Positions 679-30,141 of a DNA stretch of 36,595 nt are shown here, piece after piece; positions within the stretch are counted from its first letter, which is position 1; each line of letters begins with the position of its first letter. The notes beneath the pieces were generated by a model. It saw only the letters and a program-made list of their open reading frames with translations. It was not told the origin of the DNA and searched no databases. The DNA is from Sphingobacteriales bacterium (lineage in GTDB: Bacteria; Bacteroidota; Bacteroidia; Sphingobacteriales; Sphingobacteriaceae), in NCBI GenBank assembly GCA_015654985.1, contig JAATFW010000328.1, forward strand, positions 1 through 36,595, read 5' to 3'. The translations under genes and the position numbers were made by a program.

Positions 679-712
679 ACTTACCACTTATAACTTACTA
701 CTTACAACTTAA
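679..712 (+). repeat. Heptamer tandem array A (acttaca type, about 5 units)
   Basis: Units acttacc, acttata, acttact, acttaca, acttaa, exactly 7 bp apart, start one base after the lutA stop and end six bases before the -7 promoter motif proposed for thrS. The array therefore occupies the place where the -33 element of that promoter would be. It is a member of the dispersed heptamer family described in the findings. Confidence 0.8.
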
Positions 713-717
713 TTCCC

Positions 718-725
718 TACCTTTG
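718..725 (+). promoter_or_regulatory. Probable -7 promoter element for thrS operon
   Basis: TACCTTTG matches the Bacteroidota -7 consensus TAnnTTTG. No convincing -33 TTTG is seen because a heptamer array fills that position. Downstream, GATCAC (739-744) and GTGATC (752-757) form a perfect 6-bp stem with a 7-nt loop in what would be the thrS leader. thrS leaders are autoregulated in some bacteria, but nothing here proves that for this hairpin. Confidence 0.45.
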
Positions 726-798
726 CCTCAGAATTGAAGATCACCCTGTACGTGATCGTATTTATAAATAATTTTTTGAATTAAAATCATAGTTGTAG

Positions 799-2724
799 AT
801 GATTAACATTACTCTTCCTGATGGTTCTGTCAAACAGTATGAAAACGGAACCACTGCCTTCCAGATTGCACAATCAATTTCTGAAGGTCTAGCGCGAAAT
901 GTATTAGCGGCTGAAGTAAACGGCCAGGTTTGGGATGCCAGTCGTCCGATTGAGTCAGACGCCAGTGTAAAATTGCTCACCTGGAATGATACAGCAGGTA
1001 AGTCAACTTTCTGGCATTCATCGGCGCATTTAATGGCAGAAGCCCTTGAGGCTTTGTATCCGGGAACGAAATTCGGTATTGGCCCGGCTATTGAAACCGG
1101 CTTTTATTATGATGTGGATTTTGGCGACCGCGAGTTTTCTTCCGACGACTTCAAAGACATCGAAAATAAGATGCTTGAGCTGGCCCGGACGAAATCTGAA
1201 TATGTTCGTACGCCTGTAAGCAAGGCGGATGCTGAAGCTTATTTTACTGACAAAGGGGATGAGTATAAACTCGACCTGATAAAAGATCTGCCCGACGGCT
1301 CGATCACTTTTTATACACAGGGAAATTTTACCGACCTGTGCCGTGGCCCTCACATTCCCAATACAGGGTTTATCAAAGCTGTAAAGCTTATGAACGTTGC
1401 CGGGGCTTACTGGCGTGGTGATGAAAGCCGGAAACAACTGACCCGTATTTACGGGGTTACTTTTCCGAAACAGAGCGAACTTACAGATTACCTGAAAATA
1501 ATCGAAGAGGCTAAAAAGCGCGATCACCGGAAGCTGGGAAAAGAACTTGAGCTCTTTACTTTTTCCGAAAAAGTGGGAATGGGCTTGCCGCTCTGGTTGC
1601 CAAAAGGCGCTGCCCTGAGAGAAAAACTTGTGAACTTTCTTCAGCGTGCTCAGGTTAAAAGTGGATATGAGCAGGTAATTACCCCGCATATCGGGCATAA
1701 AAACCTGTATGTTACTTCTGGGCATTACGAAAAATATGGTGCAGATTCCTTCCAGCCGATAAAAACACCGCAGGAAGGAGAGGAGTTCTTTTTGAAACCC
1801 ATGAACTGCCCGCATCATTGCGAGCTTTATAAATTTAAGCCACGCTCGTATAAGGACCTTCCGGTCCGGTATGCCGAGTTTGGTACTGTATATCGTTATG
1901 AACAGAGCGGAGAGCTTCATGGCCTGACAAGGGTGCGTGGATTTACTCAGGATGATGCGCATTTATTCTGTCGCCCAGATCAGGTTAAAGAAGAATTTAA
2001 GAAGGTGATCGACCTGGTGCTTTATGTCTTTAATGCTCTTGGTTTTGATGATTATACGGCACAGATCTCTTTACGCGACCCTGCAAACAAGGTAAAATAT
2101 ATTGGTTCTGATGAGAACTGGCTTCTTGCCGAATCGGCTATTATTGAAGCTGCGGAAGAGAAAGGCCTGTCTACCGTTGTTGAGCTGGGTGAGGCCGCAT
2201 TTTACGGTCCTAAGCTTGACTTTATGGTGAAAGATGCTTTGGGAAGAAAATGGCAGCTTGGCACTATCCAGGTGGATTATAATCTCCCTGAGCGCTTTGA
2301 GCTTGAATATACCGGCAGTGATAATGCCAAACACAGGCCCGTGATGATTCACAGGGCTCCTTTCGGTTCTCTTGAGCGTTTCGTTGCTGTGCTGATCGAA
2401 CATTGTGCCGGTAATTTCCCTCTCTGGCTTAGTCCCGAGCAATTTATTATCCTTCCAATCTCAGAGAAGTATGAAGATTATGCAAAAAAAGTTTTGGAAT
2501 CGTTGAATAATTCCGATATTCGCGGCTTGATTGACTTGCGGGATGAGAAGATTGGAAGAAAGATCAGGGACGCCGAAGTTAAGAAAATTCCCTACATGCT
2601 TATAATAGGTGAAAAGGAAATGGCCGAAGGAAAAGTTTCCGTTAGGAAACATGGTCAGGGTGATTTGGGAAGCATGGCGGCGGAAGAATTTAAAAAACAA
2701 TTAATTACAGAAATTACGGTTTAA
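799..2724 (+). CDS. thrS: Threonine--tRNA ligase
   Basis: Class II aminoacyl-tRNA synthetase charging tRNA-Thr. Full length at 641 residues. Order of domains: TGS domain (about 1-62), editing domain with HSSAH at 73-77 and the second metal/editing pair C181...H185 in DLCRGPH, catalytic core with NCPHH (zinc ligand C337), class II motif 2 in the stretch beginning [10 protein letters not shown] (about 357), and motif 3 around [11 protein letters not shown], then the C-terminal anticodon-binding domain. It opens the thrS-infC-rpmI-rplT cluster, a gene order widely conserved in bacteria, with only 13 nt to infC. A 310-residue open frame on the opposite strand (1030-1962) is a shadow. Confidence 0.98.
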
Positions 2725-2737
2725 ACAGAATTTAAAT

Positions 2738-3313
2738 TTGGCATTAGGTAGACCAGGTTTTAACAAAGGTCCCCGGGGACCGAGACCTCCGTTTAAGAGA
2801 AAAGAGGCAGAGCATAATATCAATGAGTTCATTAAGGCACCTCAGGTTCGCCTTGTAGGGGATAATATTGAACAGGGAATTTATCCATTAAGTGAAGCCA
2901 GGGCAATAGCCGACGAGCAGGAACTTGATTTGGTAGAGATCTCTCCGAATGCCGATCCCCCGGTTTGCAGGGTAATTGATTACAACAAGTTTATCTACGA
3001 GCAAAAGAAAAAGCTTAAGGAGATAAAGGCGAATGCTAAGCAAACTGTAATAAAGGAAATTCGTTTTGGACCAAATACCAATGAGCATGATTTTCAGTTT
3101 AAACTGAAACACGCCATCGGTTTTCTTGAGAGTGGCGAAAAGGTAAGGGCCTATGTTCATTTTAAAGGAAGAGCCATTGTGTATAAGGAACAGGGTGAAA
3201 TTCTCTTATTAAGGTTCGCCCAGGCCCTTGAAGAAGTTGGAAAAGTAGAGCAACTGCCAAAACTCGAGGGAAAACGGATGTTTTTGATCGTTGGGCCGAA
3301 AGCGAAAAAATAG
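2738..3313 (+). CDS. infC: Translation initiation factor IF-3 (TTG start)
   Basis: 191 residues with the usual two-domain arrangement: N-terminal domain (from about residue 26, [15 protein letters not shown]) and C-terminal domain (from about 85, ending MFLIVGPK), joined by a lysine-rich linker. It binds the 30S subunit and checks the start codon and initiator tRNA. The frame has no ATG upstream of the conserved N-terminus; TTG at 2738 is the only sensible start. A rare start codon is how IF-3 autoregulates in E. coli (AUU there), so the same logic may apply here; that is inference. The N-terminal extension rich in Pro, Gly and Arg before residue 25 is longer than in E. coli. Confidence 0.96.
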
Positions 3314-3320
3314 GGATAGA

Positions 3321-3390
3321 GTTAAAAGTGTAAAGTGTAAAGTTAAAAGTTAAAAGTTAAAAGTTGAAAGTTGAAAGTTGAAAGGTGAAA
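3321..3390 (-). repeat. Heptamer tandem array B (10 units) between infC and rpmI
   Basis: Exactly ten 7-bp units read on the plus strand: gttaaaa, gtgtaaa (x2), gttaaaa (x3), gttgaaa (x3), ggtgaaa. Read on the minus strand they become aactttt/aacttta/aactttc, in phase with the aacttac units of other arrays. It begins 8 nt after the infC stop, inside the translation operon. A second, decayed period-7 stretch (gatactt, gatacca, gatactt, gctgcta, actgata) follows at 3408-3442. Confidence 0.85.
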
Positions 3391-3471
3391 GATCATGCGG
3401 TTGTTTTGATACTTGATACCAGATACTTGCTGCTAACTGATACTAAAAATAAAACAAGTAAAAACAGAGTT

Positions 3472-3672
3472 ATGCCAAAAATGAAGACCAATTCCAGTGC
3501 TAAAAAGCGTTTTAAGCTTACTGGAACCGGTAAAATTGCAAGGAAGAACGCGTTTATGAGCCACATCTTAACAAAGATGTCTACTAAACGTAAGCGTAAC
3601 TTAAGTCAAACCAGCTTAGTATCTGAGGCTGACTTAGGAAACGTTAAGAGAATGCTTTGCATCGGGAAGTAA
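3472..3672 (+). CDS. rpmI: 50S ribosomal protein L35 (bL35)
   Basis: 66 residues starting [20 protein letters not shown], the family signature, and of normal length. The open frame continues 29 codons upstream to 3385, but that extension is encoded by repeat-derived sequence and does not belong to L35, so the ATG at 3472 is chosen. The protein is a basic component of the large ribosomal subunit. It sits 158 nt after infC (unusually far, because of the heptamer array) and 75 nt before rplT. Confidence 0.97.
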
Positions 3673-3747
3673 ATTAATTATTTAACCAGGCACCCGGTTG
3701 TAAGACTGCTGTAACACGCAGCGCCGTCTGCCAAAATCAAAAACAAC
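3673..3747 (+). promoter_or_regulatory. rpmI-rplT spacer with possible structured L20 leader
   Basis: The 75-nt spacer can fold: GGCA near 3689 can pair with TGCC near 3728, enclosing CTGC/GCAG around 3708-3722. L20 represses its own operon in other bacteria by binding an mRNA structure that mimics 23S rRNA, so this spacer is a reasonable place to look. The pairing seen here is short and I cannot match it to a named leader family. Confidence 0.25.
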
Positions 3748-4092
3748 ATGCCACGTTCGGTCAACGCAGTAGCGTCAAGAAGAAGAAGAAAAAAGATCCT
3801 TAAATTAGCCAAAGGTTATTGGGGATCACGCAGCAAGGTTTATACTGTTGCTAAAAATACGGTAGAAAAAGGTTTGCAGTATGCTTACCGCGACCGTAAA
3901 ACCAAGAAAAGAGAGTTCAGGGCTTTATGGATTCAGCGTATTAATGCAGGTGCCCGTCACCACGGAATTTCATATTCTCAGTTAATAGGTAAATTAACGG
4001 CAAAAGGTATTGGTTTAAACCGCAAGGTTTTGGCCGACCTCGCAATGAATGAACCGGAAGCTTTTAAAGCAATAGTTGATGCAGTAAAATAG
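3748..4092 (+). CDS. rplT: 50S ribosomal protein L20 (bL20)
   Basis: 114 residues, [20 protein letters not shown] at the start, followed by the GYWGSRS segment typical of L20; length is normal. It binds 23S rRNA early in large-subunit assembly and, in E. coli and Bacillus, also acts as repressor of the infC-rpmI-rplT mRNA. Last gene of the operon, followed 22 nt later by a strong intrinsic terminator. Confidence 0.98.
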
Positions 4093-4107
4093 AGTCAACA
4101 ATTAAAC

Positions 4108-4143
4108 AAAAAAAGGGAACCAACACAATGGTTCCCTTTTTTT
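4108..4143 (+). terminator. Intrinsic terminator after rplT
   Basis: GGGAACCA (4115-4122), loop ACACAA, TGGTTCCC (4129-4136), then seven T. The upstream A-run pairs with the T-tract, so the hairpin could work on either strand. It closes the thrS-rplT transcription unit. Confidence 0.9.
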
Positions 4144-4197
4144 GTTTTAATGAGGACGGCGAAGGGATAGCCGGGAGATAAAGGGCAGTATGTAAAT

Positions 4198-4247
4198 GAT
4201 AAAATAACTCGGTGCATTTTTATAAAAAAGATTTTCCAGCGGTTTAT
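4198..4247 (-). repeat. AT-rich flank element 1 joined to array C
   Basis: Starts GATAAAATA, contains GGTGCATTTTTATAAAA and TTTCCAGCGGTTTATAC, and runs straight into the heptamer array at 4248. The segment at 13280-13332 has nearly the same sequence in the same order and also runs into an array; looser relatives lie at 24353, 29996 and 30141. Confidence 0.6.
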
Positions 4248-4283
4248 ACTTACTAACTTAGTACTTACAACTTACAACTTAAC
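4248..4283 (+). repeat. Heptamer tandem array C (5 units)
   Basis: acttact, one extra a, acttagt, acttaca, acttaca, acttaac. It ends 7 nt before the ATG of the DUF72 gene, so it lies where the ribosome-binding region or 5' leader would be. Confidence 0.75.
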
Positions 4284-4290
4284 AACAGCT

Positions 4291-5208
4291 ATGGATTTTG
4301 GAAAAGTTCCTGAAACGCAATTACCGGAAATTGATTTTAGTTTGCCGGAAGACAGTACCCTGACAAAGCAGGTTCTTAAAGAAGCTTCAAAAGTTGAGAA
4401 CCCAAAGGTATATGTTGGTTGTGCGAAATGGGGAAGGAAAGAGTGGGTAGGCCTTATTTACCCTGAGAAGACGAAGGAAGCAAAGTTCCTGGACGAGTAT
4501 GTAAAGCATTTTAACTCTATTGAGCTGAATGCGGTATTTTACAATATGCCTAAACCTGAGCAGATCAGCGCGTGGCGCGAAAAGGCAGAAGCAGAAAAGA
4601 AAGATTTTAAGTTCTGTCCGAAGTTCACCCGCAGTATCAGCCATATCAGGCGCCTGAAGAATGCTGAAGAGGATACTACCCGGTACCTCGAAAGCATATC
4701 CAACTTTGGGCCTTGCCTTGGACCTTGCTTTTTGCAGTTAAGCGATAACTTTGGACCGAAGAACCTCGAAGTTTTACAGCAATATCTTAAATCGTTGCCC
4801 GTAGACCTGGATATGTTTGTGGAAGTAAGACATCCTGACTGGTTCGCTGATCCGGCAGCGAGAGAATCGCTGTTCAGTACTCTTCGTCAATTGAACAAAG
4901 GTGCGGCTATTACAGACGCCAGTGGCCGCCGCGATTGTGTTCACATGGAACTGCCCACTCCTCATGCTTTCATCCGTTTTGTGGGGAACGGGCTTCATCC
5001 TACAGATTTCAGCAGAATTGATGAATGGGTAGACCGCATTGCTGTCTGGATACAACAGGGGCTGCAATCGGTGTACTTTTTCCTGCATCAGCATGATGAG
5101 AAAGATACTCCTGTATTAGCTGATTATACTATCAAAAAATTAAATGAGAAAACCGGTACTCACCTTAATTCTCCGGTTTTTGTAAAAAAAGCTTCTGAAC
5201 TGTTTTAA
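4291..5208 (+). CDS. DUF72 domain-containing protein (YecE-like)
   Basis: 305 residues. The core begins at about residue 40 with KVYVGCAKWGRKEWVGLIYP and includes NSIELNAVFYNMP, PKFTRSISH, FLQLSDNF and VEVRHPDWF, the conserved blocks of the DUF72/YecE family, a TIM-barrel fold of uncertain biochemical role related by fold to nucleases and isomerases. The first 35 or so residues (acidic, no signal peptide) are an addition to the core. Probably cytoplasmic. It stands alone between the rplT terminator and the peroxiredoxin gene, with a heptamer array directly in front of its ATG. Confidence 0.9.
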   Translation: MDFGKVPETQLPEIDFSLPEDSTLTKQVLKEASKVENPKVYVGCAKWGRKEWVGLIYPEKTKEAKFLDEYVKHFNSIELNAVFYNMPKPEQISAWREKAEAEKKDFKFCPKFTRSISHIRRLKNAEEDTTRYLESISNFGPCLGPCFLQLSDNFGPKNLEVLQQYLKSLPVDLDMFVEVRHPDWFADPAARESLFSTLRQLNKGAAITDASGRRDCVHMELPTPHAFIRFVGNGLHPTDFSRIDEWVDRIAVWIQQGLQSVYFFLHQHDEKDTPVLADYTIKKLNEKTGTHLNSPVFVKKASELF

Positions 5209-5240
5209 ACTTTGCAGGACATTGATTGTTTCATAATAAT

Positions 5241-5255
5241 CTACTAATTTAGTAG
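5241..5255. promoter_or_regulatory. Perfect palindrome upstream of the peroxiredoxin gene
   Basis: CTACTAA-T-TTAGTAG: two perfect 7-bp arms around a single base, 37 nt before the ATG. It contains TAATTTAG, a one-base variant of the TAnnTTTG promoter element, so a bound repressor would sit on the promoter. Shape and place suit an operator, for example of a redox-sensing regulator; the regulator is not identified. Confidence 0.4.
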
Positions 5256-5291
5256 AGTTAATGTGATCCTTTAATTTAATGTAGTATAAAA

Positions 5292-5927
5292 ATGAGCTTA
5301 AGAATTGGCGATACCGCCCCAAACTTCACCGCCCAAACATCACAGGGCGAAATTAATTTTTACGATTATGCCGGCGACAGCTGGGTTGTGTTATTCTCAC
5401 ATCCTGCTGATTACACGCCGATCTGTACTACCGAGCTTGGTCGTACAGCCTCTCTCAGCGACGAGTTTGCAAAGCGTAATGTAAAGGTGATTGCTTTAAG
5501 TGTTGATCCTGTCGACAAACATAAAGGCTGGATCCAGGACATTAATGAAACTCAGAATGTTGAGGTTAATTTCCCGATTATTGCAGACGAAAACAAGGAA
5601 GTGGCTGAAGCTTATGGAATGATCCATCCAAACGCATCGGAAACCCATACTGTGCGCTCACTTTTTGTGATCGGCCCCGACAAGAAGGTCAAACTGATCA
5701 TTTCCTATCCGGCTTCAACCGGCAGAAACTTCCAGGAAATCCTTCGTGTGATAGACTCACTCCAGCTTACAGCAAATTATAGTGTAGCAACTCCTGCCGA
5801 CTGGAAAGACGGAGAGGATGTAGTGGTTGTGAACTCTATTAAGACTGAAGATATCCCTTCTAAGTTTCCAAAAGGCCACCGTGTGGTGAAGCCTTATTTA
5901 CGGTTTACACCTCAGCCGAATAAGTAA
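5292..5927 (+). CDS. 1-Cys peroxiredoxin (Prx6 type)
   Basis: 211 residues, AhpC/TSA fold followed by the C-terminal extension typical of Prx6 enzymes. The peroxidatic site is HPADYTPICTTELG (T42, C45), with the conserved Arg downstream in the HTVRSLF segment. C45 is the only cysteine in the protein, so there is no resolving cysteine and the enzyme must be recycled by an external thiol. It reduces H2O2 and organic peroxides in the cytoplasm. It appears to be a single-gene unit with its own palindromic promoter region. trxB lies elsewhere in the window (23203). Confidence 0.95.
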   Translation: MSLRIGDTAPNFTAQTSQGEINFYDYAGDSWVVLFSHPADYTPICTTELGRTASLSDEFAKRNVKVIALSVDPVDKHKGWIQDINETQNVEVNFPIIADENKEVAEAYGMIHPNASETHTVRSLFVIGPDKKVKLIISYPASTGRNFQEILRVIDSLQLTANYSVATPADWKDGEDVVVVNSIKTEDIPSKFPKGHRVVKPYLRFTPQPNK

Positions 5928-5956
5928 TAAGTAATAAATATAGTAAGTAATAAAAA

Positions 5957-5995
5957 AGAAACTGAAGAGGAAGCTGTGGTTTCCTTTCAGTTTCT
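5957..5995 (+). terminator. Long hairpin after peroxiredoxin gene
   Basis: Arms 5957-5972 and 5980-5995 pair at 15 of 16 positions (two G-T, one mismatch) around a 7-nt loop. It starts 30 nt after the stop codon. There is an A-run before the stem but no T-run directly after it, so it may stabilise the 3' end of the transcript or terminate only weakly. Short period-7 sequence (aagtaat repeats) lies between the stop and the hairpin. Confidence 0.45.
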
Positions 5996-6072
5996 CAGCA
6001 GAAACGTCTTTTTCTCAATTATTTCGGGGGTAAGATCAAATCCTGCAATTTTTTTATATGCTTTCTATAAAA

Positions 6073-6103
6073 TTGCATATAAAATTTTTTTTATCTAAGT
6101 TTG
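6073..6103 (+). promoter_or_regulatory. Promoter of the cold-shock gene
   Basis: TTG at 6073-6075, 20 nt, then TAAGTTTG at 6096-6103, a good match to the Bacteroidota -33/-7 pattern. Transcription from here would give a leader of about 95 nt, AU-rich, in front of the cold-shock ORF. Long leaders are usual for cold-shock mRNAs. Confidence 0.6.
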
Positions 6104-6206
6104 AATAAATCTCCTGTTCTTAGTTTACCTGATAAATAAATCTAAATTTCTTTTTCAGTTATAATAATTGCGGTTGATTTAGTGGTAATTTTATTTTTAA
6201 TAATTT

Positions 6207-8914: not shown

Positions 8915-8916
8915 TT

Positions 8917-8951
8917 AAGTTATAAGTTATAAGTAGTACGTTGTAAGTTGC
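8917..8951 (-). repeat. Heptamer tandem array E (5 units) overlapping a gene end
   Basis: aagttat (x2), aagtagt, acgttgt, aagttgc on the plus strand, which on the minus strand are acttaca-type units. The array lies between the GNAT gene and the aspartokinase gene; the GNAT stop (8927) and its last residues (LTTYYL) are encoded by the array. Confidence 0.75.
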
Positions 8952-9394: not shown

Positions 9395-9403
9395 TGGAAA
9401 ATA

Positions 9404-9480
9404 GTATCAAGTATCAAGTATCTGGTATCTGGTATCTGGTATCTGGTATCAAGTATCAAGTATCGGGTATCGGGTATCCG
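9404..9480 (-). repeat. Heptamer tandem array F (11 units)
   Basis: Eleven exact 7-bp steps: gtatcaa x2, gtatctg x4, gtatcaa x2, gtatcgg x2, gtatccg. Neighbouring units are identical in blocks, which points to recent slippage or unit-by-unit copying. Read on the minus strand the units are ttgatac/cagatac/ccgatac. Located between yggS and the GNAT gene, 9 nt upstream of the GNAT start codon. Confidence 0.9.
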
Positions 9481-9513
9481 GGCAGGCGTGAGGCTGGCTG
9501 ATAGCATCGTTAT

Positions 9514-13332: not shown

Positions 13333-13367
13333 ACTTATAACTTACTACTTATTACGTATAACTTAAC
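13333..13367 (+). repeat. Heptamer tandem array G (5 units)
   Basis: acttata, acttact, acttatt, acgtata, acttaac; the last unit is one base from the stop codon of the minus-strand CinA-like gene at 13369. Confidence 0.8.
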
Positions 13368-13368
13368 A

Positions 13369-13863
13369 CTAGTCAATTTCCTTCAGTTCTTCCAGTATTG
13401 CAAGAGCCGTGGCCTGGATCGTTTGAGCAATGATATCATCCGGACTTCCTTCAAAGAAGTATCTTTTTTGCCAGCTCCTGTCTTTTACATATCCGTGAAC
13501 GAACATGGTGCCTACAGGCTTTTCGTCTGTTTCGCTGCCTCCCGGAGAAGCGAGTCCCGTTACCGCTACCATAATATCTGCAGGTAACAGGGTCTTCAGT
13601 CCGTCTGCAAGAAGGCTGGTCACTTCTGCCGATTCTGCAGAATATCGATCTATAACGGAAGCGGGAATTTTAAAGAGTTCTTCCTTAACGCTCCGGTCAT
13701 AACATACGATACTTCCCCTCACAATATTACCGCAGTCTGGTACAGAAGTGAAATCATAAATAAATCTGCCGGTACTGGCGCTTTCAGCAAACGATATGGT
13801 AAGTTCCTTTTCCCTGATTTTAATACAACAGGCTATTACAGATTGAGCAGGCATATAATACAA
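13369..13863 (-). CDS. CinA-type nicotinamide-nucleotide amidase
   Basis: 164 residues, equal to the stand-alone C-terminal (PncC) domain of CinA; the N-terminal molybdopterin-binding-like half is absent. The active-site region reads AESASTGR (25-32) where the family has AESCTGG, a variation common in Bacteroidota; GSIVCYD, SAEVT, AVTGLASPGGSETDEKPVGT are conserved. Expected to deamidate nicotinamide mononucleotide to the nicotinate form, salvaging NAD. The more internal Met at position 4 is an alternative start. Divergent from fbaB. Confidence 0.88.
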   Translation of the reverse strand: MYYMPAQSVIACCIKIREKELTISFAESASTGRFIYDFTSVPDCGNIVRGSIVCYDRSVKEELFKIPASVIDRYSAESAEVTSLLADGLKTLLPADIMVAVTGLASPGGSETDEKPVGTMFVHGYVKDRSWQKRYFFEGSPDDIIAQTIQATALAILEELKEID

Positions 13864-17014: not shown

Positions 17015-17028
17015 GTGTGTGTGTTATT

Positions 17029-17147
17029 GAGTTATGAGTTATGAGTTATGAGTTATGAATTATGGGTTATGAATTATGAATTATGGGTTATGAATTATGA
17101 ATTATGAATTATGGGTTATGAGTTATGAATTATGGGTTATGAATTAT
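17029..17147 (-). repeat. Heptamer tandem array (17 units), left arm of an inverted pair
   Basis: Seventeen exact 7-bp units drawn from gagttat, gaattat and gggttat, starting 14 nt upstream of the oxidoreductase start. Only two positions of the unit vary. Its reverse complement (ataactc, ataattc, ataaccc) is the same unit set as the array at 17283-17422. Confidence 0.92.
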
Positions 17148-17282
17148 CAAAGTAATACAATTGATTATTAGTGTTTAATATTTTATTTAAGAGAACTGGT
17201 ATTGCGTAATACAAACCTGCCTGTACTAAATGATTAGGAGAATAAGTCAACTTATTATGGGCCTAAACCAATTTTTAGAATT
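17148..17282. other. Spacer between the two inverted heptamer arrays
   Basis: 135 nt of AT-rich non-coding sequence. The right part, read on the minus strand from the array outward, contains ATTCTAAAAATTGGTTTAGG, similar to the flank element near the arrays at 29912 and 30080. With the arrays this makes a gene-free stretch of about 410 nt between the oxidoreductase and the esterase. No ORF or promoter stands out. Confidence 0.5.
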
Positions 17283-17422
17283 GCCATAACCCATAACCCA
17301 TAACTCATAATTCATAATTCATAATTTATAACTCATAATTTATAACTCATAACCCATAACTCATAACTCATAATTCATAACCCATAACCCATAACTCATA
17401 ACTCATAATTCATAACCCATAA
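17283..17422 (+). repeat. Heptamer tandem array (20 units), right arm of an inverted pair
   Basis: Twenty 7-bp units: gccataa, then mixtures of cccataa, ctcataa, ttcataa and tttataa. A twenty-first partial unit carries the TGA stop of the esterase gene (17424-17426 on the minus strand). It is the reverse complement in type of the array at 17029-17147. Confidence 0.92.
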
Positions 17423-17423
17423 C

Positions 17424-18338
17424 TCATTCAATCACCCCCAGCCCCTTCAACCAATGTTCTACCCTGTCTGTCCAGTGGTCGGGAGCACGGTTGGAGCGGA
17501 TTCCAAAGCCGTGCCCGCCTTTTGGATAAAGGTGCATTTCCGCAGAAACTCCGTTCTTAACCAGGGCTTCATAAAACTTAATACTGTTAGCCACTTTTAC
17601 CGTTTTGTCATCGGCTGCGTGAATAAGCATTGAAGGAGGTGTTTCCGGTGTGATCTGTAATTCATTTGAAAAATACTTAATCGTTTCCGGTGAAGGATTT
17701 GTGCCAATCAGGTTATCTCTTGAACCTTTATGCATCAAGCTGTCGCTGAAGCTGATTACAGGATAGACAAGTATCATGAAATCAGGACGGAGATTAATTC
17801 CCTCTTTATTATCGATAACCGCTTTTGAAAAATGGGTTCCCGCTGTAGATGCGAGATGGCCCCCGGCAGAAAAACCGATAATTCCAACGCGTCCCGGATC
17901 AACAGACCATTCTTTTGCCCGGCTTCGCACTGTTTTTATTGCCTGCTGCGCATCCTGAAGCGGTCCTGTTGTTTTATCAGCCATGATATTGTCTGATGGT
18001 AAACGGTACTTAAGAATAAAGGCGGCAATGCCCATCTTATTAAATTCGGCGGCTATATCAGTTCCTTCATTTGTATACGAAACAATCCGGTACCCTCCGC
18101 CGGGAATAATTATTACCGCTGCACCTGTCGCTTTTTCTTTTGGAGGAAGATAAATAGCAAGAGTTGGTTCAGAGACTTTTCCATATCTGATTTCCCCGGC
18201 GGCATTTACATCTTTATCTTCTTTTTCCTGTGATGTAACTGAATTTGGAATTTTACCATTATAAAGCGGAATGGTAGTTTGTGCGATACCCCTCATTAAA
18301 CCTGCTGTTAACACTAAAGTAAGGACTAATTTGTGCAT
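17424..18338 (-). CDS. Secreted alpha/beta hydrolase, acetyl-esterase-like
   Basis: 304 residues with a signal peptide (about 1-19, cut after GIAQ). Oxyanion-hole motif IPGGGY (78-83), nucleophile in GFSAGGH (S157), acid in AADDKT (D243 or D244), His in GGHGFG (H276). This layout matches the BD-FAE/acetyl xylan esterase-like hydrolases common in polysaccharide-degrading Bacteroidota, so removal of acetyl or other acyl groups from plant glycans in the periplasm is plausible; no glycosidase or SusCD genes are nearby to support it. The stop codon falls in a heptamer array. Confidence 0.88.
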   Translation of the reverse strand: MHKLVLTLVLTAGLMRGIAQTTIPLYNGKIPNSVTSQEKEDKDVNAAGEIRYGKVSEPTLAIYLPPKEKATGAAVIIIPGGGYRIVSYTNEGTDIAAEFNKMGIAAFILKYRLPSDNIMADKTTGPLQDAQQAIKTVRSRAKEWSVDPGRVGIIGFSAGGHLASTAGTHFSKAVIDNKEGINLRPDFMILVYPVISFSDSLMHKGSRDNLIGTNPSPETIKYFSNELQITPETPPSMLIHAADDKTVKVANSIKFYEALVKNGVSAEMHLYPKGGHGFGIRSNRAPDHWTDRVEHWLKGLGVIE

Positions 18339-24156: not shown

Positions 24157-24406
24157 TCTGCAGTCTGCCGTTTTTCTTTCTGAAATACCCGGGATTCTGC
24201 AGAACAATCTTTATTGAAATTTGTTTAAAGGTAAATGCAGTTTACAAAGTAGTGTTATAAAGTTTATAAAGTAGTATTATAAAATAGATATAAAGATAGC
24301 GGCTTGTTACTTTTTATCTATAAAACAGTTCTTCAATGGAACATGAGAGACCGATAAAACTGTTTTATATCAATTTTATAAAACAATACACTTCGGGCGT
24401 GTTTGA
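24157..24406. other. trxB-bTHX intergenic region with repeats
   Basis: Contains a direct repeat AAAGTAGTrTTATAAA (24246-24261 and 24268-24283, 22-bp step) and a 12-bp inverted repeat TATAAAACAGTT (24319-24330)/AACTGTTTTATA (24358-24369). The final part, 24353-24406, is flank element 3 (GATAAAAC...CAATTTTATAAAAC...TTCGGGCGTGTTTG), reading into the heptamer array. The inverted repeat could regulate the downstream ribosomal protein gene. No terminator for trxB is clear. Confidence 0.5.
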
Positions 24407-24469
24407 ACTTACAACTTACAACTTACAACTTACAACTTATAACTTACAACTTACAACTTACAACTTAAC
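24407..24469 (+). repeat. Heptamer tandem array (9 units) upstream of bTHX
   Basis: acttaca x4, acttata, acttaca x3, acttaac, exact 7-bp period, ending 9 nt before the start codon. A spurious 73-codon reading frame (24336-24557) crosses it and yields a repeating LTTYNLQ peptide. Confidence 0.92.
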
Positions 24470-24478
24470 AATAGTATT

Positions 24479-24601: not shown

Positions 24602-24623
24602 AAGTGCCCCCGGGCACTTTTTT
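24601..24623 (+). terminator. Intrinsic terminator after bTHX gene
   Basis: AAAGTGCCC (24601-24609), CC loop, GGGCACTTT (24612-24620) and further T to 24623. The stem begins on the last base of the stop codon. Confidence 0.9.
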
Positions 24624-24634
24624 GTTAAATAGCT

Positions 24635-25231: not shown

Positions 25232-25256
25232 CATTTTCATTTTACCGCGTCTTTAT

Positions 25257-25264
25257 TAGCTTTG
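25257..25264 (+). promoter_or_regulatory. Probable -7 element for the lipoprotein gene
   Basis: TAGCTTTG fits TAnnTTTG; TTTT lies at the -33 distance. The resulting leader of about 115 nt would contain the long hairpin at 25284-25337. Confidence 0.4.
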
Positions 25265-25283
25265 GGTAATATTCTCAAACTGA

Positions 25284-25337
25284 GATGAATTGCTTTTATG
25301 TTCAAAATACATAAATCGAATATAAAAGCAATTCATC
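25284..25337 (+). promoter_or_regulatory. 20-bp hairpin in the leader of the lipoprotein gene
   Basis: Arms 25284-25303 and 25318-25337: the outer 16 bp (GATGAATTGCTTTTAT/ATAAAAGCAATTCATC) are perfect, and four more pairs (one G-T) extend it, with a 14-nt loop. There is no T-run after it, so it is not a standard terminator. It may be a leader structure, a protein-binding site, or a small palindromic repeat. Confidence 0.6.
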
Positions 25338-25388
25338 GATCTCTGATCAGCCTTTGAGAAACAGTTTTATAGATCAAAATATAAGCCG

Positions 25389-26027
25389 ATGAGCAATTTA
25401 AGAGTTTATTCTCAAAGACACTTCTTTTATATTTCAACCATTTCGTCCTTCATTCTTTTTTTCATTGCTGCCTGTACTTCTGATAAACCGAAAGAGCCGG
25501 AAAAAACTTTGGTAAAAGTGGTACTTCCCGAACCTTTCCATTTTCATAAAGCAATAGAAGTAAAGCCGGGACTAACTTTTGATGTAGTAAGCTGGGGCCG
25601 GGGATCTGAGCTTACCGGTGCTTTTCTTATAATGCGTTCTGATTCATCAGGCATGAAATATCGTTCTGCTTCGGGAGACCTGGAAGGGCGTATTAAAGAT
25701 GCCTGGAATATGGATATGGATTCGGATGGTAATCCTGAAATTTTTATAGAGGCCGTAGGCGAAGGCAAGGATAATTATCTTAAAATGTACGTTTATGAGT
25801 TTGATGATAACGGAACCGCCCGCGAATTACGATTCCCTGATCTCACCTCATCTACTAAAAAGAATTACCGGGGGAAGGATTCTGTTTATATAAAAGAGGG
25901 CGGCTTATACCGTGAGTTTCCATTATATGATGAAAAAGATACAGCCGGTCTTAAACCTACCGGGAAAAAATTGATAGAATATGTTCTGAGAGGAAATAAT
26001 TTCTCTGTAAAGGATGCTAAACCCTGA
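25389..26027 (+). CDS. Lipoprotein, possibly PliI-like
   Basis: 212 residues. Signal with lipobox FIAAC (C29), then a low-complexity stretch rich in Lys, Glu and Pro, and a beta-rich domain. It contains DMDSDGNPEIFI (about 119-130), a calcium-loop-like DxDxDG sequence, and a C-terminal block GGLYREFPLYDEKDTAGLKP followed by TGKKLIEYVL. That block recalls the tail of PliI-type periplasmic lysozyme inhibitors annotated in Bacteroidota; the similarity is from memory and weak outside this block. Otherwise a hypothetical envelope lipoprotein. Converges on the sigma-factor operon with 13 nt between stops. Confidence 0.6.
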   Translation: MSNLRVYSQRHFFYISTISSFILFFIAACTSDKPKEPEKTLVKVVLPEPFHFHKAIEVKPGLTFDVVSWGRGSELTGAFLIMRSDSSGMKYRSASGDLEGRIKDAWNMDMDSDGNPEIFIEAVGEGKDNYLKMYVYEFDDNGTARELRFPDLTSSTKKNYRGKDSVYIKEGGLYREFPLYDEKDTAGLKPTGKKLIEYVLRGNNFSVKDAKP

Positions 26028-26040
26028 ACAGCAAGCCCTT

Positions 26041-26655
26041 CTAAATTTCTTCGTCTGCAGCCGAAGCGTTAAACTGTTTCTGCAATCTTTCGAGGTTTCC
26101 TATCATTTCATATAGCTTTTCCTGCTCCCTGCGAATGTAAATCCGCATGAGTCTCCAGCATATAACAAACCATGCTATGGTAAATAATATTCCTGTAACC
26201 GTTTGCCATAGAGGAGCAACGAAATAAAGCTCAACGAAATACAGCCCAAAAGCTATCCCAATAAAAATACTGTAAACCGAATACTTTCTGGTGTTTAAAA
26301 CATAACGGTTACGCCTGTAATTTTTCAGGTAACTGATATATTCTTCCGGCTGTTTTAACAGCGACTCGCTGTTTGAAATACTGCGGTAATCCTTTAGTTG
26401 TATAACAACATAATACAGGCAGCATAAAATAAAGATAAGCAGGGAAAGGTGGGTGGTCCACATCATAAAGGGATTACTTATCCATACCCAAAGGAAAATG
26501 ACCACGCCGGCCAGCATTCCTCCCGTTTCCAGAAGCAGCTTGTTGCCGAAGCTCCTCTTCGATTTTTTAAGATTCTTAACAAGATCTTCGTAGCTGATCC
26601 CGGGCTGCAATACCTGACCGTTCCATATATCCTTCAGTGCATCAAAATCTTTCAT
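26041..26655 (-). CDS. Four-helix membrane protein encoded with an ECF sigma factor
   Basis: 204 residues. Soluble N-terminus (1-38, starting MKDFDALKDIWNGQ), two transmembrane segments (about 42-60 and 67-88), a basic cytosolic loop (90-122), two more (about 126-146 and 150-170) and a charged C-terminal helix. Its start overlaps the sigma-factor stop by 14 nt, so the two are translationally coupled. That arrangement and the membrane location suggest a regulator of the sigma factor, but there is no recognised zinc-binding anti-sigma motif (HxxxCxxC); function is inference. Confidence 0.7.
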   Translation of the reverse strand: MKDFDALKDIWNGQVLQPGISYEDLVKNLKKSKRSFGNKLLLETGGMLAGVVIFLWVWISNPFMMWTTHLSLLIFILCCLYYVVIQLKDYRSISNSESLLKQPEEYISYLKNYRRNRYVLNTRKYSVYSIFIGIAFGLYFVELYFVAPLWQTVTGILFTIAWFVICWRLMRIYIRREQEKLYEMIGNLERLQKQFNASAADEEI

Positions 26656-27139
26656 AACGATTATATATTTCCGTCAGCTTGTGTTTTATCCTGTGTATTT
26701 TAACACGAAGATTTCCTTCTGAAACCCCTGCAATCTCAGCAATTTCAGCATACGGCACTTCATCCAGCACCATAGTTATTATTATACGTTCATTCTCTTC
26801 GAGTTGGGCAATACATTTATAAAGGAGGCCTGCCTGTTCGTTCTTTTCAGAAAGTTCTTCCCGTTTATTTTCAATGATATTTTCGGTAAGTTCTTCTTTT
26901 GCCTGTCGCTTTTCCACCCTGAGCCAGGAGAGGCAGGTATTTACGGCTATGCGGTAGATCCAGGTAGAGATCATGGCCTGATTCCTGAATTTATCCAGAT
27001 TTTGCCAAACCTTCATAAAGGTTTCCTGCATCAGATCGTTTGCCGCGTCATTATCGCCGGTATATCCATAGCATAAATGGTAAACTCTTTTGGAGTTAGA
27101 CCTGAAGATTTCTTTAAAAAGAGCTTCCTTGTTTACCAT
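26642..27139 (-). CDS. ECF-type RNA polymerase sigma factor
   Basis: 165 residues. Region 2 spans about 8-76 with DLMQETFMKVWQNLDKF (35-51) and STWIYRIAVNTCLSWLR (58-74); region 4 has the helix-turn-helix YAEIAEIAGVSEGNLRVKIH (130-149). No region 1 or 3, hence an extracytoplasmic-function factor. Starts with VNKEALFKEIF after Met. Target promoters unknown. No TAnnTTTG motif precedes it on its strand, so it may be autoregulated from a promoter of its own class. Confidence 0.93.
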   Translation of the reverse strand: MVNKEALFKEIFRSNSKRVYHLCYGYTGDNDAANDLMQETFMKVWQNLDKFRNQAMISTWIYRIAVNTCLSWLRVEKRQAKEELTENIIENKREELSEKNEQAGLLYKCIAQLEENERIIITMVLDEVPYAEIAEIAGVSEGNLRVKIHRIKHKLTEIYNRYERF

Positions 27140-27169
27140 TTATATTTAGATAAGTACATCAGAAATTTG

Positions 27170-27691
27170 TTACAACATAAATTCCTTTTCATTAATAGCG
27201 CTTATTTTACCGGCTGCCTTTACAATAAGGGCATTAAACCCTTCTTTATAATCAAACTGCAGGTCTTCATGAAGTTTTAAGATTGTTTTTCTGACCTTTT
27301 GCAACTGTCTGATCAGTAACATATATAATGCTTTCTGTGATGATTTTATACTTCCATGCTCCAGAAGATTATCGCAATACCAAAGGAGAAGTTCAACCTC
27401 AGCTACCGGCATACCGGTATACTTTATATGTTTATTGAGGATGCGGAGTATTTTTCGTAACTCTTTTGTTTTCTGATAAGAGTTCCGCGAGAGAATATGG
27501 AAGCTTTCCTGTAATGAAAGTTTTACAGACTGAAGGTAACTTTCAGGATTGGCTGATTCAAACAGTAAATAATTAAGAAACTCTTTATTATCCCTTTTAA
27601 ATTTCGCCAGTTTAAGGCAGATTTCTACCAGCGCGGTACTTTCAAGTAATTTTAATTCCTTTTTAATTTCACTTATTCTTTCTGGTTTCAT
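27170..27691 (-). CDS. Hypothetical helical protein
   Basis: 173 residues, almost entirely predicted helix and strongly basic, with Lys/Leu-rich stretches (for example KELRKILRILNKHIKYTG at about 76-93). No signal peptide, no membrane segment, no motif I recognise. Two nearby cysteines (C20, C106) are not arranged as a metal site. It lies 30 nt upstream of the sigma factor on the same strand, so it may be the first gene of that operon, and it is divergent from the symporter gene. Confidence 0.65.
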   Translation of the reverse strand: MKPERISEIKKELKLLESTALVEICLKLAKFKRDNKEFLNYLLFESANPESYLQSVKLSLQESFHILSRNSYQKTKELRKILRILNKHIKYTGMPVAEVELLLWYCDNLLEHGSIKSSQKALYMLLIRQLQKVRKTILKLHEDLQFDYKEGFNALIVKAAGKISAINEKEFML

Positions 27692-27704
27692 TCTGAAGCT
27701 GTAA

Positions 27705-27736
27705 TTTGGCAGGTAAAGCTAATTATTTTACATTTG
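27705..27736 (+). promoter_or_regulatory. Promoter of the symporter gene
   Basis: TTTG (27705-27708), 20 nt, TACATTTG (27729-27736): close to a perfect Bacteroidota promoter, 20 nt before the ATG. Confidence 0.65.
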
Positions 27737-27756
27737 TCGACGGTTAATTTGTTTAC

Positions 27757-29154
27757 ATGAAGTTAAAACAAGCAGGTTTTACTGCTATTATTACCATATC
27801 TATAGCAGCAATTCTTCTCTTTCTTAATCATTACAATCTGCTTGCTGTCCCTGGTCCCGTTCTGAAGTTTTCGAGATGGCTGGCAATAGCCGGCCTGGTT
27901 CTGTATGGAATTAAGAAAAGATCGCTTACTTCATGGATCCTGATTGCTATGATGATCGGTGCTGCCATAGGTCATGATTATCCTGAGCTTGCGTTAAACC
28001 TGCAGGTTTTGAGCAAGATCTTCCTTAAAATGATAAAAACGATCGTAGGTCCCCTGCTTTTTGCTACGCTGGTTTATGGCATTGCCGGTCATGCCGATTT
28101 GAAACAGGTAGGACGAATGGGCTGGAAATCTATTCTGTATTTTGAAATTGTAACCACTGTGGCCCTGTTTATAGGACTTGCAGCAATTAATATTTCAAAA
28201 GCGGGGGTAGGTATTAAAATTCCCCCAACGCTTCATGAGGAACTCCCTCAGGTGCCTCCGCAGTCTGCCAATGACATCATCCTGCATATCTTTCCTGAGA
28301 ATATAGCCAAATCAATGGCCGAAGGGCAAATTCTCCAGATCGTTATTTTCAGTATCGTTTTTGGCATCGGGCTGGCTCTCGTTCGTGAAGATAAACGGAT
28401 GCCCATGCTGCGCTTTACTGAAAGCCTGGCAGAGGTAATGTTTAAATTTACCAATATCGTAATGTATTTTGCCCCTATCGGGGTAGGCGCTGCTATTGCA
28501 TATACCGTTGGACATATGGGATTAGGCATCCTGGTGAATCTTTTTCAGTTGCTGGCTACTTTGTATGTCGCGTTGATCGTTTTCCTCCTGGGCGTTTTAT
28601 TACCGATTGCTTTTTTTACCGGCGTCCCTCTTAAGCGCTTTATTGGAGCTATTGCAGGCCCCGTTTCTATTGCCTTTGCCACCACCAGTTCCGAAGCGGC
28701 CCTTCCAAGGGCTATGGAAAACCTTGAGAAGCTTGGTGTTCCTCGTAAAATCGTAGCTTTTGTGATGCCTACAGGCTATAGCTTTAATCTTGACGGCACC
28801 ACTTTATACCTGGCTCTTGCAGCTATATTCGTTGCCCAGGCCGCCGGTATGCATCTTAGTTTCGGGCATCAGCTTCTGATCGTTTTTACCCTGATGTTAA
28901 CCAGTAAAGGAGTGGCCGGAGTGCCGAGGGCTTCCCTGGTTATTCTTCTCGGAACGGCTTCTTCTTTCGGGATGCCAAGCTGGCCCATCTTTATTATCCT
29001 TGGTATTGATGAACTGATGGACATGGCCCGTACCTCAGTGAACGTTATAGGGAACTGCCTGGCCACCATCGTTGTTGCCAAATGGGAAAAAGAGTTTAAT
29101 CCTGAAGACCAGGTATCAACCCATAATCAACAACCCATAACTCATAACCCGTAA
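27757..29154 (+). CDS. Dicarboxylate/amino acid:cation symporter (DAACS family)
   Basis: 465 residues. Full GltP/DctA-type membrane transporter: two extra hydrophobic helices at the N-terminus, FLKMIKTIVGPLLFATLVYG (about 90-109), the serine-rich re-entrant loop ATTSSEAALP (about 308-317), PTGYSFNLDGTTLY (about 334-347) with its cation-binding NLDGT, and the second hairpin around SKGVAGVPRAS. Imports glutamate, aspartate or C4-dicarboxylates with protons or sodium. The last 11 or so residues (THNQQPITHNP) and the stop codon come from a heptamer array. Confidence 0.93.
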   Translation: MKLKQAGFTAIITISIAAILLFLNHYNLLAVPGPVLKFSRWLAIAGLVLYGIKKRSLTSWILIAMMIGAAIGHDYPELALNLQVLSKIFLKMIKTIVGPLLFATLVYGIAGHADLKQVGRMGWKSILYFEIVTTVALFIGLAAINISKAGVGIKIPPTLHEELPQVPPQSANDIILHIFPENIAKSMAEGQILQIVIFSIVFGIGLALVREDKRMPMLRFTESLAEVMFKFTNIVMYFAPIGVGAAIAYTVGHMGLGILVNLFQLLATLYVALIVFLLGVLLPIAFFTGVPLKRFIGAIAGPVSIAFATTSSEAALPRAMENLEKLGVPRKIVAFVMPTGYSFNLDGTTLYLALAAIFVAQAAGMHLSFGHQLLIVFTLMLTSKGVAGVPRASLVILLGTASSFGMPSWPIFIILGIDELMDMARTSVNVIGNCLATIVVAKWEKEFNPEDQVSTHNQQPITHNP

Positions 29155-29399
29155 TTCATAACTCATAACCCGTAATTCATAACTTATAATTCATAACTTA
29201 TAATTCGTAATTCATAACCCGTAATTCATAACTTATAATTCATAACCCATAATCCATAACTCATAACCCGTAATTCATAACTTATAATCCATAATCCATA
29301 ATCCATAACCCATAACTCATAACCCATAATTCATAACTTATAATCCATAATCCATAACTCATAAGTCATAATTCATAACCCATAATTCATAACTCATAA
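29120..29399 (+). repeat. Heptamer tandem array, 40 units
   Basis: 280 bp in exactly forty 7-bp steps with no insertion or deletion, built from cccataa, ctcataa, ttcataa, tccataa, cttataa, cccgtaa and a few single variants. Higher-order patterns recur, for example cccgtaa-ttcataa-cttataa. The first five units are coding (end of the symporter gene); the array ends 11 nt before the next start codon. It is the longest array in the window. Confidence 0.95.
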
Positions 29400-29410
29400 T
29401 TTATTAAAGC

Positions 29411-29911
29411 ATGAGCGATAGAGGAAAAAAGATATTTTTAGCACTGAGTATTGTGATCCCTTTTCTCATATACTGTGTATATTATTACGGGATGATGGTA
29501 AAAAATGCGCCATACAAGTTTTCAGAATTCGAATCGATGACCTTTAAATATGGGCTGGGAGATAACATGGTTAATCAGTATGATTCCAGGACTGCACGTT
29601 ATCAATACCTTAACGATAAAGATTCTTTAGTGCAGAAGCAGGTGAAACTTACTAAAGATGATTTACTTTATCTGCACAGGAAAGCCGCAGAATATGGTTT
29701 CTGGGACTTCCCCTCCGAAATGAAAGGCCCTGCACTGACCCCCGGTCAAAGCTCACCTCATTATTATCTGGAATTTAAATATCAGCGAAAATCCAAAAAA
29801 GTAATGTTTGACCTGAACTATAATGGAAATCCAAAACTAAAAGATGCCGTCAGGCAGTTGATAGAAATTGTCAGCAAAACTATTAATACAGCAGAAGAAC
29901 GCGGTAAGTAG
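29411..29911 (+). CDS. Hypothetical membrane-anchored protein
   Basis: 166 residues. One N-terminal transmembrane anchor (about 8-30, after the basic RGKK), then a soluble domain outside the membrane with TFKYGLGDNMVNQYDSRTA and a helix-rich segment YLHRKAAEYGFWDFPSEM (about 86-105), which resembles small Bacteroidota proteins of unknown function that sense or bind envelope components. No catalytic motif. It is preceded by the 40-unit array and followed at once by another array. Confidence 0.65.
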   Translation: MSDRGKKIFLALSIVIPFLIYCVYYYGMMVKNAPYKFSEFESMTFKYGLGDNMVNQYDSRTARYQYLNDKDSLVQKQVKLTKDDLLYLHRKAAEYGFWDFPSEMKGPALTPGQSSPHYYLEFKYQRKSKKVMFDLNYNGNPKLKDAVRQLIEIVSKTINTAEERGK

Positions 29912-29995
29912 GTTGCGGGTTGTGAGTTGTAAGTTGCAGGTTGTGAGTTGCTGGTTGCAGTTTGTAAGTTGCTGGTTGCAGGCTGTGAGTTATGG
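29912..29995 (-). repeat. Heptamer tandem array (12 units)
   Basis: gttgcgg, gttgtga, gttgtaa, gttgcag, gttgtga, gttgctg, gttgcag, tttgtaa, gttgctg, gttgcag, gctgtga, gttatgg, starting on the base after the stop codon of the preceding gene. Read on the minus strand the units are of the aac-yy-nn type. Confidence 0.88.
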
Positions 29996-30046
29996 GTTTC
30001 CAGCGATTTTAAAAATTGATTTAAATATACAACACACTTTTATAGC
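29996..30046 (+). repeat. AT-rich flank element 4
   Basis: GTTTCCAGCGATTTTAAAAA, then TTGATTTAAATATACAACAC to TTTTATAGC. Repeats with small changes at 30141-30193, in both cases directly after a heptamer array. Confidence 0.6.
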
Positions 30047-30079
30047 TGATAATCATAGAGTTGGAAATGTGTTCTACCG

Positions 30080-30141
30080 TTTGTAGGTTGCGGATTGTAA
30101 GTTGTAGCTCTAGGCTGTGGGTTGCAGGTTGTGAGCGATAG
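30080..30141 (-). repeat. Heptamer tandem array (about 9 units, one slipped)
   Basis: tttgtag, gttgcgg, attgtaa, gttgtag, ctctag (6 bp), gctgtgg, gttgcag, gttgtga, gcgatag. Same unit set as the array at 29912, but more decayed. Confidence 0.75.

Follow-up and report, generated by a model that had tools for sequence, protein, structure and literature searches.

Mirrored Heptamer Arrays at Gene Ends in a Sphingobacteriaceae Genome as Possible Arms of Fold-Back-Like Intergenic Repeats

In a 36,595-bp stretch of DNA from a Sphingobacteriales bacterium (contig JAATFW010000328.1, hereafter the window), arrays of degenerate 7-bp units lie between genes, form inverted pairs, keep a fixed polarity with respect to the neighboring genes and abut gene edges. 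The two arms of a pair share their spelling, gaps that hold arrays have extra length compared with some relatives, and at least 46 copies of a dispersed core of about 88 bp are joined one way to arrays of one type. We propose, with a probability of about 0.45, that the arrays are the arms, or the leftover single arms, of fold-back-like intergenic repeats whose heptamer arms have grown by slippage; such repeats are most likely placed mostly at the 3′ ends of genes. An earlier description of the arrays (the sequence-only reading) had overlooked the inverted pairing, the polarity away from genes, the core and further dialects of the unit, including one of 8 bp.

Results

Period and Distribution of the Arrays

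The window is the whole of one contig (C223) of the host assembly G000 (Sphingobacteriaceae; 4.73 Mb, 355 contigs, 88% complete). The closest named matches to its ThrS, at 87 to 90% identity, belong to Mucilaginibacter, Pedobacter and Olivibacter, which places it in Sphingobacteriaceae. Arrays were detected with Tandem Repeats Finder (TRF) and with our own scoring of matches at lag 7, using a threshold of 12 for tests on the window or at least 14 for genome counts. Genes were called with our own hexamer scorer, which small genes such as rpmI escape. The genome-wide sample covered 744.7 kb of G000, partly stretches picked for hits and thus enriched for arrays. The relatives compared were G001, G002, G003, G004 and G005, the last of the same genus as G000; G045 belongs to another genus of Sphingobacteriaceae, and G066 is Mucilaginibacter UBA5151.

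Twelve arrays had been listed in the window. Eleven of them reached the lag-7 threshold (scores from 13.4 to 117.2) and stood out against shuffled sequence, and the twelfth, at 30080, fell below it with 19 matches of 35 and was absent from the TRF listing of the window. TRF placed ten of the twelve at period 7 and reported the array at 29120 only under the multiples 14, 35 and 49. Across 200 dinucleotide shuffles of the window, the mean was 0.01 array scoring at least 12, with at most one per shuffle and a top score of 14.0; the weakest accepted array (13333, score 13.4) is within the range of this best shuffle. Stretches with at least 28 matches of 35 occurred at lags 7, 14, 21, 28 and 35 and at no other lag from 2 to 40. 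A 317.5-kb portion of G000 yielded 32 arrays versus none in a dinucleotide-simulated control, and in the full sample period 7 accounted for 57 arrays, with no more than four at any of the other periods between 3 and 13. The lag spectrum, the simulated control and the shuffles together rule out chance or base composition as the source of the arrays. The period does hold over long distances without slippage, as the longest array (287 bp, 29118 to 29404) is in a single register throughout, and neighboring units are frequently identical.

Among the arrays of G000 scoring at least 14, 66 of 69 were mostly outside predicted genes, confirming their enrichment between genes. The statement that they fill intergenic space went too far: only 45 of 411 gaps of at least 20 bp contained one, even in a sample enriched for arrays. 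The density in the window (10 arrays scoring at least 14 in 36.6 kb) was unusually high compared with 9 arrays in 331 kb from 30 arbitrarily numbered contigs, or with 20 arrays in 213 kb from another set, part of which was known beforehand to contain hits. Several small contigs (for example at L140, L144, L153 and L168) start or stop within arrays, which thus probably break the assembly and are undercounted.

Inverted Pairing, Polarity and Gene Edges

We call an array GTT-type (or G-type) when its plus strand reads GTTRNRR, and AAC-type (or A-type) when it reads AACYYNY. Two arrays within 250 bp formed a neighbor pair. A GTT-type array on the left faced an AAC-type array on the right in 14 of the 15 neighbor pairs of G000, the other being AAC-AAC, and in three of the four of G005, the other being GTT-GTT; the 49 pairs of G045 comprised 23 GTT-AAC, 15 GTT-GTT, 8 AAC-AAC and 3 AAC-GTT. 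Read outward from the nearest gene, arrays within 40 bp of a predicted gene were GTT-type whatever the direction of that gene in 42 of 46 cases in G000 (one more ambiguous; binomial p 5e-9), 11 of 14 in G005 (p 0.057) and 54 of 59 in G045 (three ambiguous; p 2e-11). These counts left out 22, 3 and 61 arrays, respectively, that were in a gene, had no gene on one side or lay further off. The polarity was obeyed by single arrays (25/32 in G000, 7/10 in G005, 33/38 in G045) and in gaps with several arrays (22/26, 6/6 and 46/59), and the arrays ahead of start codons were AAC-type in 10 of 10 start-edge cases in G000, 2 of 3 in G005 and 15 of 18 in G045.

Many arrays abut the gene itself: of those within 40 bp of a stop codon, 21 of 36 in G000 and 29 of 41 in G045 began at most 5 bp from it. 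Stop edges were preferred over start edges in G000 (36 arrays for 396 edges versus 10 for 426; Fisher p 3e-5 on counts of arrays, not of edges). Divergent gaps contained an array in only 1 of 69 cases in G000 (p 0.003) and in 6 of 43 in G045, where the depletion was not significant. Promoter regions thus look avoided in G000 and not used for promoter spacing, one of the roles considered previously.

Arms of the same locus shared more 7-mers than arms of different loci, both in G000 (0.39 versus 0.16, n = 14, permutation p 0.0002) and in G045 (0.30 versus 0.09, n = 22, p 0.0002); three pairs were available in G005 (p 0.33). Mirrored arms of common spelling, equivalent to the terminal inverted repeats of miniature inverted-repeat transposable elements (MITEs) or fold-back elements, were found in pairs and not in single arrays. 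Unit order was mirrored between arms in just 3 of 21 pairs, as expected if the arms slip separately, and on this count we rejected the idea that pairs arose when one arm was recently copied from its partner. Most pairs were predicted to form stable RNA hairpins (median z −4.7 for 39 pairs, both strands), with predicted values of −161 and −172 kcal/mol on the two strands for the pair at 17028 to 17427. Finally, GTT and AAC arrays lying 250 bp to 6 kb apart, candidate bounds of an autonomous parent element, were found once in G000, six times in G045 and once in G005.

The Dispersed Core

The sequence at 29995 to 30090 belongs to a family with at least 47 matches in G000, 46 of them with E values below 1e-13 (40 of 86 candidates scored). 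Its consensus of about 88 bp contains an inner inverted repeat, ACAACACA/TGTGTTGT, and, as judged by eye in the alignment, continues in a single register into (GTTRNRR)n on the left side. Among 39 distinct copies, a GTT-type array was present on the left of 23 and on the right of 3, and 15 passed on neither side, some of these being devoid of any array; an AAC-type array was found on neither side of any of the 39. We did not find the core in G001, G002, G003 or G005, and G004 gave one 22-bp match. No plasmid matched the core, and the window had no relevant match in Rfam, a single weak match being unrelated. One copy occupies a 183-bp convergent gap. In G005, the sequences that match the two flanks of this gap are separated by about 36 bp, and in G001 by 51 bp (G003 and G004 being not comparable).

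Y1 transposases were found in none of six genomes of the genus (G000 being 88% complete), in a search whose controls were hit in 5 of 14 cases; we thus rejected an identity with repetitive extragenic palindromes and their associated transposases (REP/RAYT) or with IS200/IS605.

Head-to-tail core copies about 94 bp apart occur in G000 at C343:9208-9495 and C339:14687-14913 and on C199, C249 and C295. Another dispersed intergenic repeat set of G000 (CTCTCATC..TTTTATAGATGAAAT) was seen at L022:7129-7750 and linked loci. BLAST linked 58 of 441 intergenic regions into one cluster, and 20 of these 58 had arrays.

Gap Lengths in Relatives

Three gaps that hold arrays in G000 (256 to 478 bp) measure 6 to 80 bp in three relatives. 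The gap between the esterase-like and Gfo/Idh-like genes is 409 bp in G000 versus 8, 6 and 8 bp in G002, G003 and G004, and 195 bp, with mirrored arrays, in G005. After the dctA-like gene, the gap is 256 bp versus 23 (G005), 8 (G002) and 7 bp (G003), G004 being not comparable, and after trxB it is 478 bp versus 239, 72, 80 and 73 bp. Some gaps that are free of arrays have constant lengths (30/30/30/30/31 bp and 65/62/63/60/63 bp). As the gaps are compact in some relatives, the mirrored structures look like additions.

Unit Sequences and Dialects

The sequence-only reading had proposed the consensus WAYYnnn. Taken in any phase and on any strand, this pattern fits all 10 window arrays, and also 53% of background intergenic heptamers, so that its fit is only moderate evidence; it is too loose and, alone, close to chance. 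The informative part of the unit is AACYYNY (GTTRNRR on the opposite strand). Shortened to AACYY, with a background of 6.2%, it fits 9 of the 10 window arrays and 48 of the 59 others in G000 (57/69 overall). The arrays thus do form a related family, and neither loss of the consensus outside a fixed phase nor equal abundance of other periods was observed. AACYY also fits 8 of 17 arrays in G005 and 41 of 123 in G045, the background rate having been measured in G000 only. Of 61 genomes of the family, 25 matched a pattern requiring more than three AAC units, and G002, G003 and G004 were not among these; the reversed-pattern control was not clean, scoring in array-rich genomes too, because it overlaps the motif.

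The commonest unit of G000 is AACTTAC/GTAAGTT, which lacks GGG, and some others, for example AACCCGC, contain a GGG-type run. AACTGAT, a phase of the TAACTGA repeat known from other bacteria (see section “Discussion”), was absent from the 30 most frequent units of G000, to which the comparison was confined.

The gap after infC illustrates how units change between species. The distance from infC to rplT, rpmI included, is 303 to 313 bp in eight of the nine Pedobacter loci measured, 395 to 433 bp in 7 of 7 named Mucilaginibacter loci and 438 bp in G000. Several Mucilaginibacter have mirrored repeats with other units after the infC stop (by eye, partly scored): the infC-rpmI gap bears 8-bp units of GATGTGCA type in MD40, UBA5151 and M. 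agri, and 7-bp units in BO124 (GAATCAA/ATTCTTG) and L196 (GATTAGA). An octamer doublet was found in 5 of 11 genomes searched, with 2 to 22 matches each, and not in the G000, G005, two Pedobacter and two other Mucilaginibacter genomes of that set. As BO124, with its 7-bp units at infC, is one of the five, dialects mix within one genome. In G066, where period 7 co-occurs with period 8, 29 of 33 octamer runs follow the polarity rule (17 stretches chosen for the octamer), and the neighbor pairs (n = 14) comprise 9 mirrored, 5 same-direction and no reversed pairs.

Discussion

Mirrored Arrays as Fold-Back-Like Repeats

A complete element would consist of (GTTRNRR)n, a spacer and (YYNYAAC)n, and would sit in an intergenic gap with each arm abutting the end of a gene. 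Such units would enter compact gaps either via copying of elements that carry the core or via recombination between arrays, and each arm would then lengthen and homogenize on its own by replication slippage. Losing one arm would leave a single array with its polarity retained. Insertions would be selected against in promoter gaps and tolerated after stop codons, where the transcript would bear a long hairpin and might thereby be protected or terminated. We infer this spread, the loss of arms and any function from the arrangement of the arrays. We favor the fold-back-like interpretation because it accounts at once for the pairing, the polarity of single arrays, the abutment in gaps that relatives keep short, the common spelling of the arms and the core.

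Drosophila fold-back transposons (FB, Galileo) likewise have inverted arms made of short tandem repeats. They differ from the arrays described here in being eukaryotic, and we found neither a transposase (Y1 being the only class sought) nor a clear target duplication. Integron attC sites, whose GTT and AAC boxes are ordered oppositely to the arrays, and DNA-uptake sequences were also considered as analogies and set aside.

Several observations weigh against fold-back-like elements. The sole candidate target duplication, AAGGT at the core copy of the convergent gap, is ambiguous because the DNA around it is rich in purines and resembles the heptamers; most pair spacers look unrelated, which is odd for copies of one element; and no transposase was linked to the arrays, within the one class sought. 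In G045, 9 of 22 pairs have folding z scores no better than about −2, whichever strand is taken. The relatives may have lost arrays rather than never had them. Other array-free gaps vary in length (157 versus 88, 30, 42 and 40 bp; 181 versus 976, 640 and 976 bp), and the gap at 29911 to 30451 is longer in G005 (969 bp) though array-free there. Gap length thus changes for other reasons as well, the excess at array gaps being still striking. Published systems add further difficulties. In two Xanthomonas species, most repeats are flanked by the same genes (Rehm et al., 2015, PMC4692102) and, in the same way, the infC-rpmI gap of several Mucilaginibacter bears mirrored repeats of different units in the same place, both pointing to long residence with turnover in place. 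A Microcystis sample breaks the start-side rule (6 forward, 8 reverse), and Beggiatoaceae keep the start-side orientation with one indirect repeat, so that pairing is not needed for polarity (MacGregor, 2015, PMC4679880).

Comparison With Known Heptamer Repeats

Heptamer arrays with inverted pairing and a strand preference are already known, unexplained, from other bacteria. Heptamer arrays of GGGAATC or GGGGA(C/T)T units are described from Xanthomonas and Nostoc; the (GGGANTN)n arrays of Xanthomonas form 70 and 75 convergent pairs, and Nostoc arrays have the same strand preference with few paired repeats (Rehm et al., 2015, PMC4692102). As in Xanthomonas, the arrays described here are degenerate heptamers with a conserved core, mostly intergenic, and form convergent inverted pairs, their G-rich strand being the coding one after stops and the non-coding one before starts (42/46 in G000). 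The Xanthomonas unit can form G-quadruplexes, unlike many GTTRNRR units, which have no GGG run; the linked core and the 8-bp dialect in a relative are further differences.

The sequence-only reading knew of no equivalent in this lineage, whereas TAACTGA direct repeats have been reported in Beggiatoaceae, cyanobacteria and five Bacteroidetes, with other heptamers beside them in Gramella, Aequorivita and Elizabethkingia (MacGregor, 2015, PMC4679880), so that an equivalent is described for the phylum. TAACTGA is likewise an AAC-type heptamer and lies forward before starts in Beggiatoaceae and Flexibacter litoralis, one set of the latter being reversed directly after a stop; some relatives in that study have shorter gaps without repeats. 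The Guaymas Beggiatoaceae have an exact unit in 2 to 6 copies and a single indirect repeat, (PMC4679880), unlike the numerous spellings and long arrays found here, which often form mirrored pairs and lie mostly at stops. The BrickBuilt miniature inverted-repeat transposable element of Porphyromonas gingivalis, also in Bacteroidota, is always intergenic and carries a tandem repeat within a dispersed inverted-repeat element; it differs in having a 23-bp unit inside the element and leader and tail parts, and no 7-bp arm units (PMC4596501). In the open-licence literature, we found no paper on such arrays in Mucilaginibacter or Sphingobacteriaceae. The units, the dialects, the gap comparison and the linked core are new here.

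Heptanucleotides have been reported to be the most abundant of the long simple repeats (5 to 11 nt) in most surveyed genomes (Mrazek, 2007, cited in PMC4679880), and this abundance has no accepted cause. An outward G-rich strand, often in mirrored pairs and with varied dialects, gives a precise rule that any explanation has to meet. In the present data it holds for two genera and for units of 7 and 8 bp, and published results extend it to Xanthomonas and Nostoc (PMC4692102). The species-specific core offers a handle for finding what spreads the mirrored structures.

Alternative Explanations

The strongest rival, which we nonetheless consider rather unlikely, is that arrays arose in place by slippage from short seeds at gene ends under selection on RNA, with polarity selected rather than inherited. 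Arrays would be kept only as a 3′ hairpin after a stop, with a G-rich 5′ arm, or as a G-poor unstructured leader before a start. This fits the excess at stop edges, the near absence from divergent gaps and the strong predicted hairpins. Its strength comes from the use of the same gaps in several species with different units and from the same polarity being published for other units, as the strand preference of Xanthomonas and Nostoc (PMC4692102) and the forward orientation before starts in Beggiatoaceae (PMC4679880). It leaves unexplained why dozens of loci per genome have one common vocabulary and why the core is joined to arrays in one orientation. Pairs are also found inside operon-like gaps, infC-rpmI among them, in which a terminator would be out of place, and Rehm et al. 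(PMC4692102) sought a regulatory role of the Xanthomonas repeats and could identify none.

Neutral simple repeats made by polymerase slippage alone, with neither function nor spread, are improbable. Adjacent units are often identical, the unit order of the arms is mostly not mirrored, and a tendency of heptamers to slip has been proposed (Mrazek, 2007, cited in PMC4679880 and PMC4692102); the fixed polarity, the inverted pairing, the common vocabulary and the dispersed core all go against it.

Marginally less probable still is that the arrays are recognized by a nucleic-acid-binding protein (Csp, S1 or a DNA-binding protein), with dialects that would track the protein, a role proposed earlier for TAACTGA (PMC4679880). 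A genome-wide vocabulary, dialects that differ between genomes and the AAC-type arrays before starts agree with this, whereas the wide variation of units inside one genome, the presence of periods 7 and 8 together in G066 and the location of most edge arrays at stops do not. Least probable of all, a long shot, is that Sphingobacteriaceae, Xanthomonas, cyanobacteria and Beggiatoaceae have one process in common, in which an unknown templated enzyme would add G-rich repeats of 7 or 8 bp, in a lineage dialect, at both sides of a gap and pointing away from the coding sequences. The polarity would be that of a telomere-like addition to DNA 3′ ends, and each mirrored pair would be an intergenic break that has been healed and rejoined.

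Arrays of the Window and Further Observations

Unless stated otherwise, the following arrays were detected by both TRF and the lag-7 score. An AAC-type array of AACTTAC units (679 to 711, plus strand) lies 2 bp past a stop codon and violates the polarity rule. The infC-rpmI gap holds a mirrored pair, with a GTT-type left arm (GTTAAAA/GTTGAAA; 3320 to 3391, minus strand) 7 bp past the infC stop and a weak partner of TACTTGA/TACCAGA units (3404 to 3429, plus strand) recognized by eye (TRF 3406 to 3429, score 34). Next come an AAC-type array of AACTTAC upstream of the start at 4291 (4248 to 4286, plus strand; lag-7 4256 to 4281), a GTT-type array between two minus-strand genes (8916 to 8950, minus strand), a GTATCAA/GTATCTG array of the TTGATAC dialect (9403 to 9481, minus strand) and a weak TACTTAT array in a convergent gap (13333 to 13370, plus strand), accepted on its lag-7 score of 13.4. 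The largest mirrored pair is made of a GTTATGA-type left arm (17028 to 17150, minus strand), a spacer (17151 to 17283) and a TCATAAC-type right arm (17284 to 17427, plus strand) that overlaps the stop of the next gene. AACTTAC recurs in about nine units at 24406 to 24467 (plus strand).

The longest array (29118 to 29404, plus strand) is built of AACCCAT, AACTCAT and AATTCAT and runs into the 3′ end of the dctA-like gene. At 29911 to 29985 (minus strand), a GTT-type array of GTTGCAG and GTTGTGA begins at a stop codon; it is followed by the window copy of the core (29995 to 30090, plus strand), whose inverted repeat is imperfect, and by degenerate GTT-type units (30085 to 30135, minus strand) corresponding to the subthreshold array at 30080.

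An additional weak period-7 stretch, outside the twelve, lies at 5919 to 5940 (score 12.8). AACTTAC-type arrays have, by eye, a common AT-rich inner flank around CGCCTGAAATnCTTTGTTTTATAAAAATG, seen in the window at 4248-4286 and 24406-24467 and elsewhere at L025:8664, L026:5663, L028:8332, L030:11312 and L182:17797; this flank is possibly a second core or a promoter. At the G045 loci L183 to L202, the inner ends of arrays are often followed by CTGGGCGGA or ACTAGACGCT, and TGGGCG occurs at most 45 bp from the array in 15 of 123 G045 arrays, 11.5 times the background. Mucilaginibacter BO124 has a further mirrored pair, of 8-bp units (GTCATTGA / TCAATGAC) at L048:18209-18309. The C-terminus of the dctA-like protein (gene 27757-29154), ..STHNQQPITHNP, extends into the array and differs from that of relatives.

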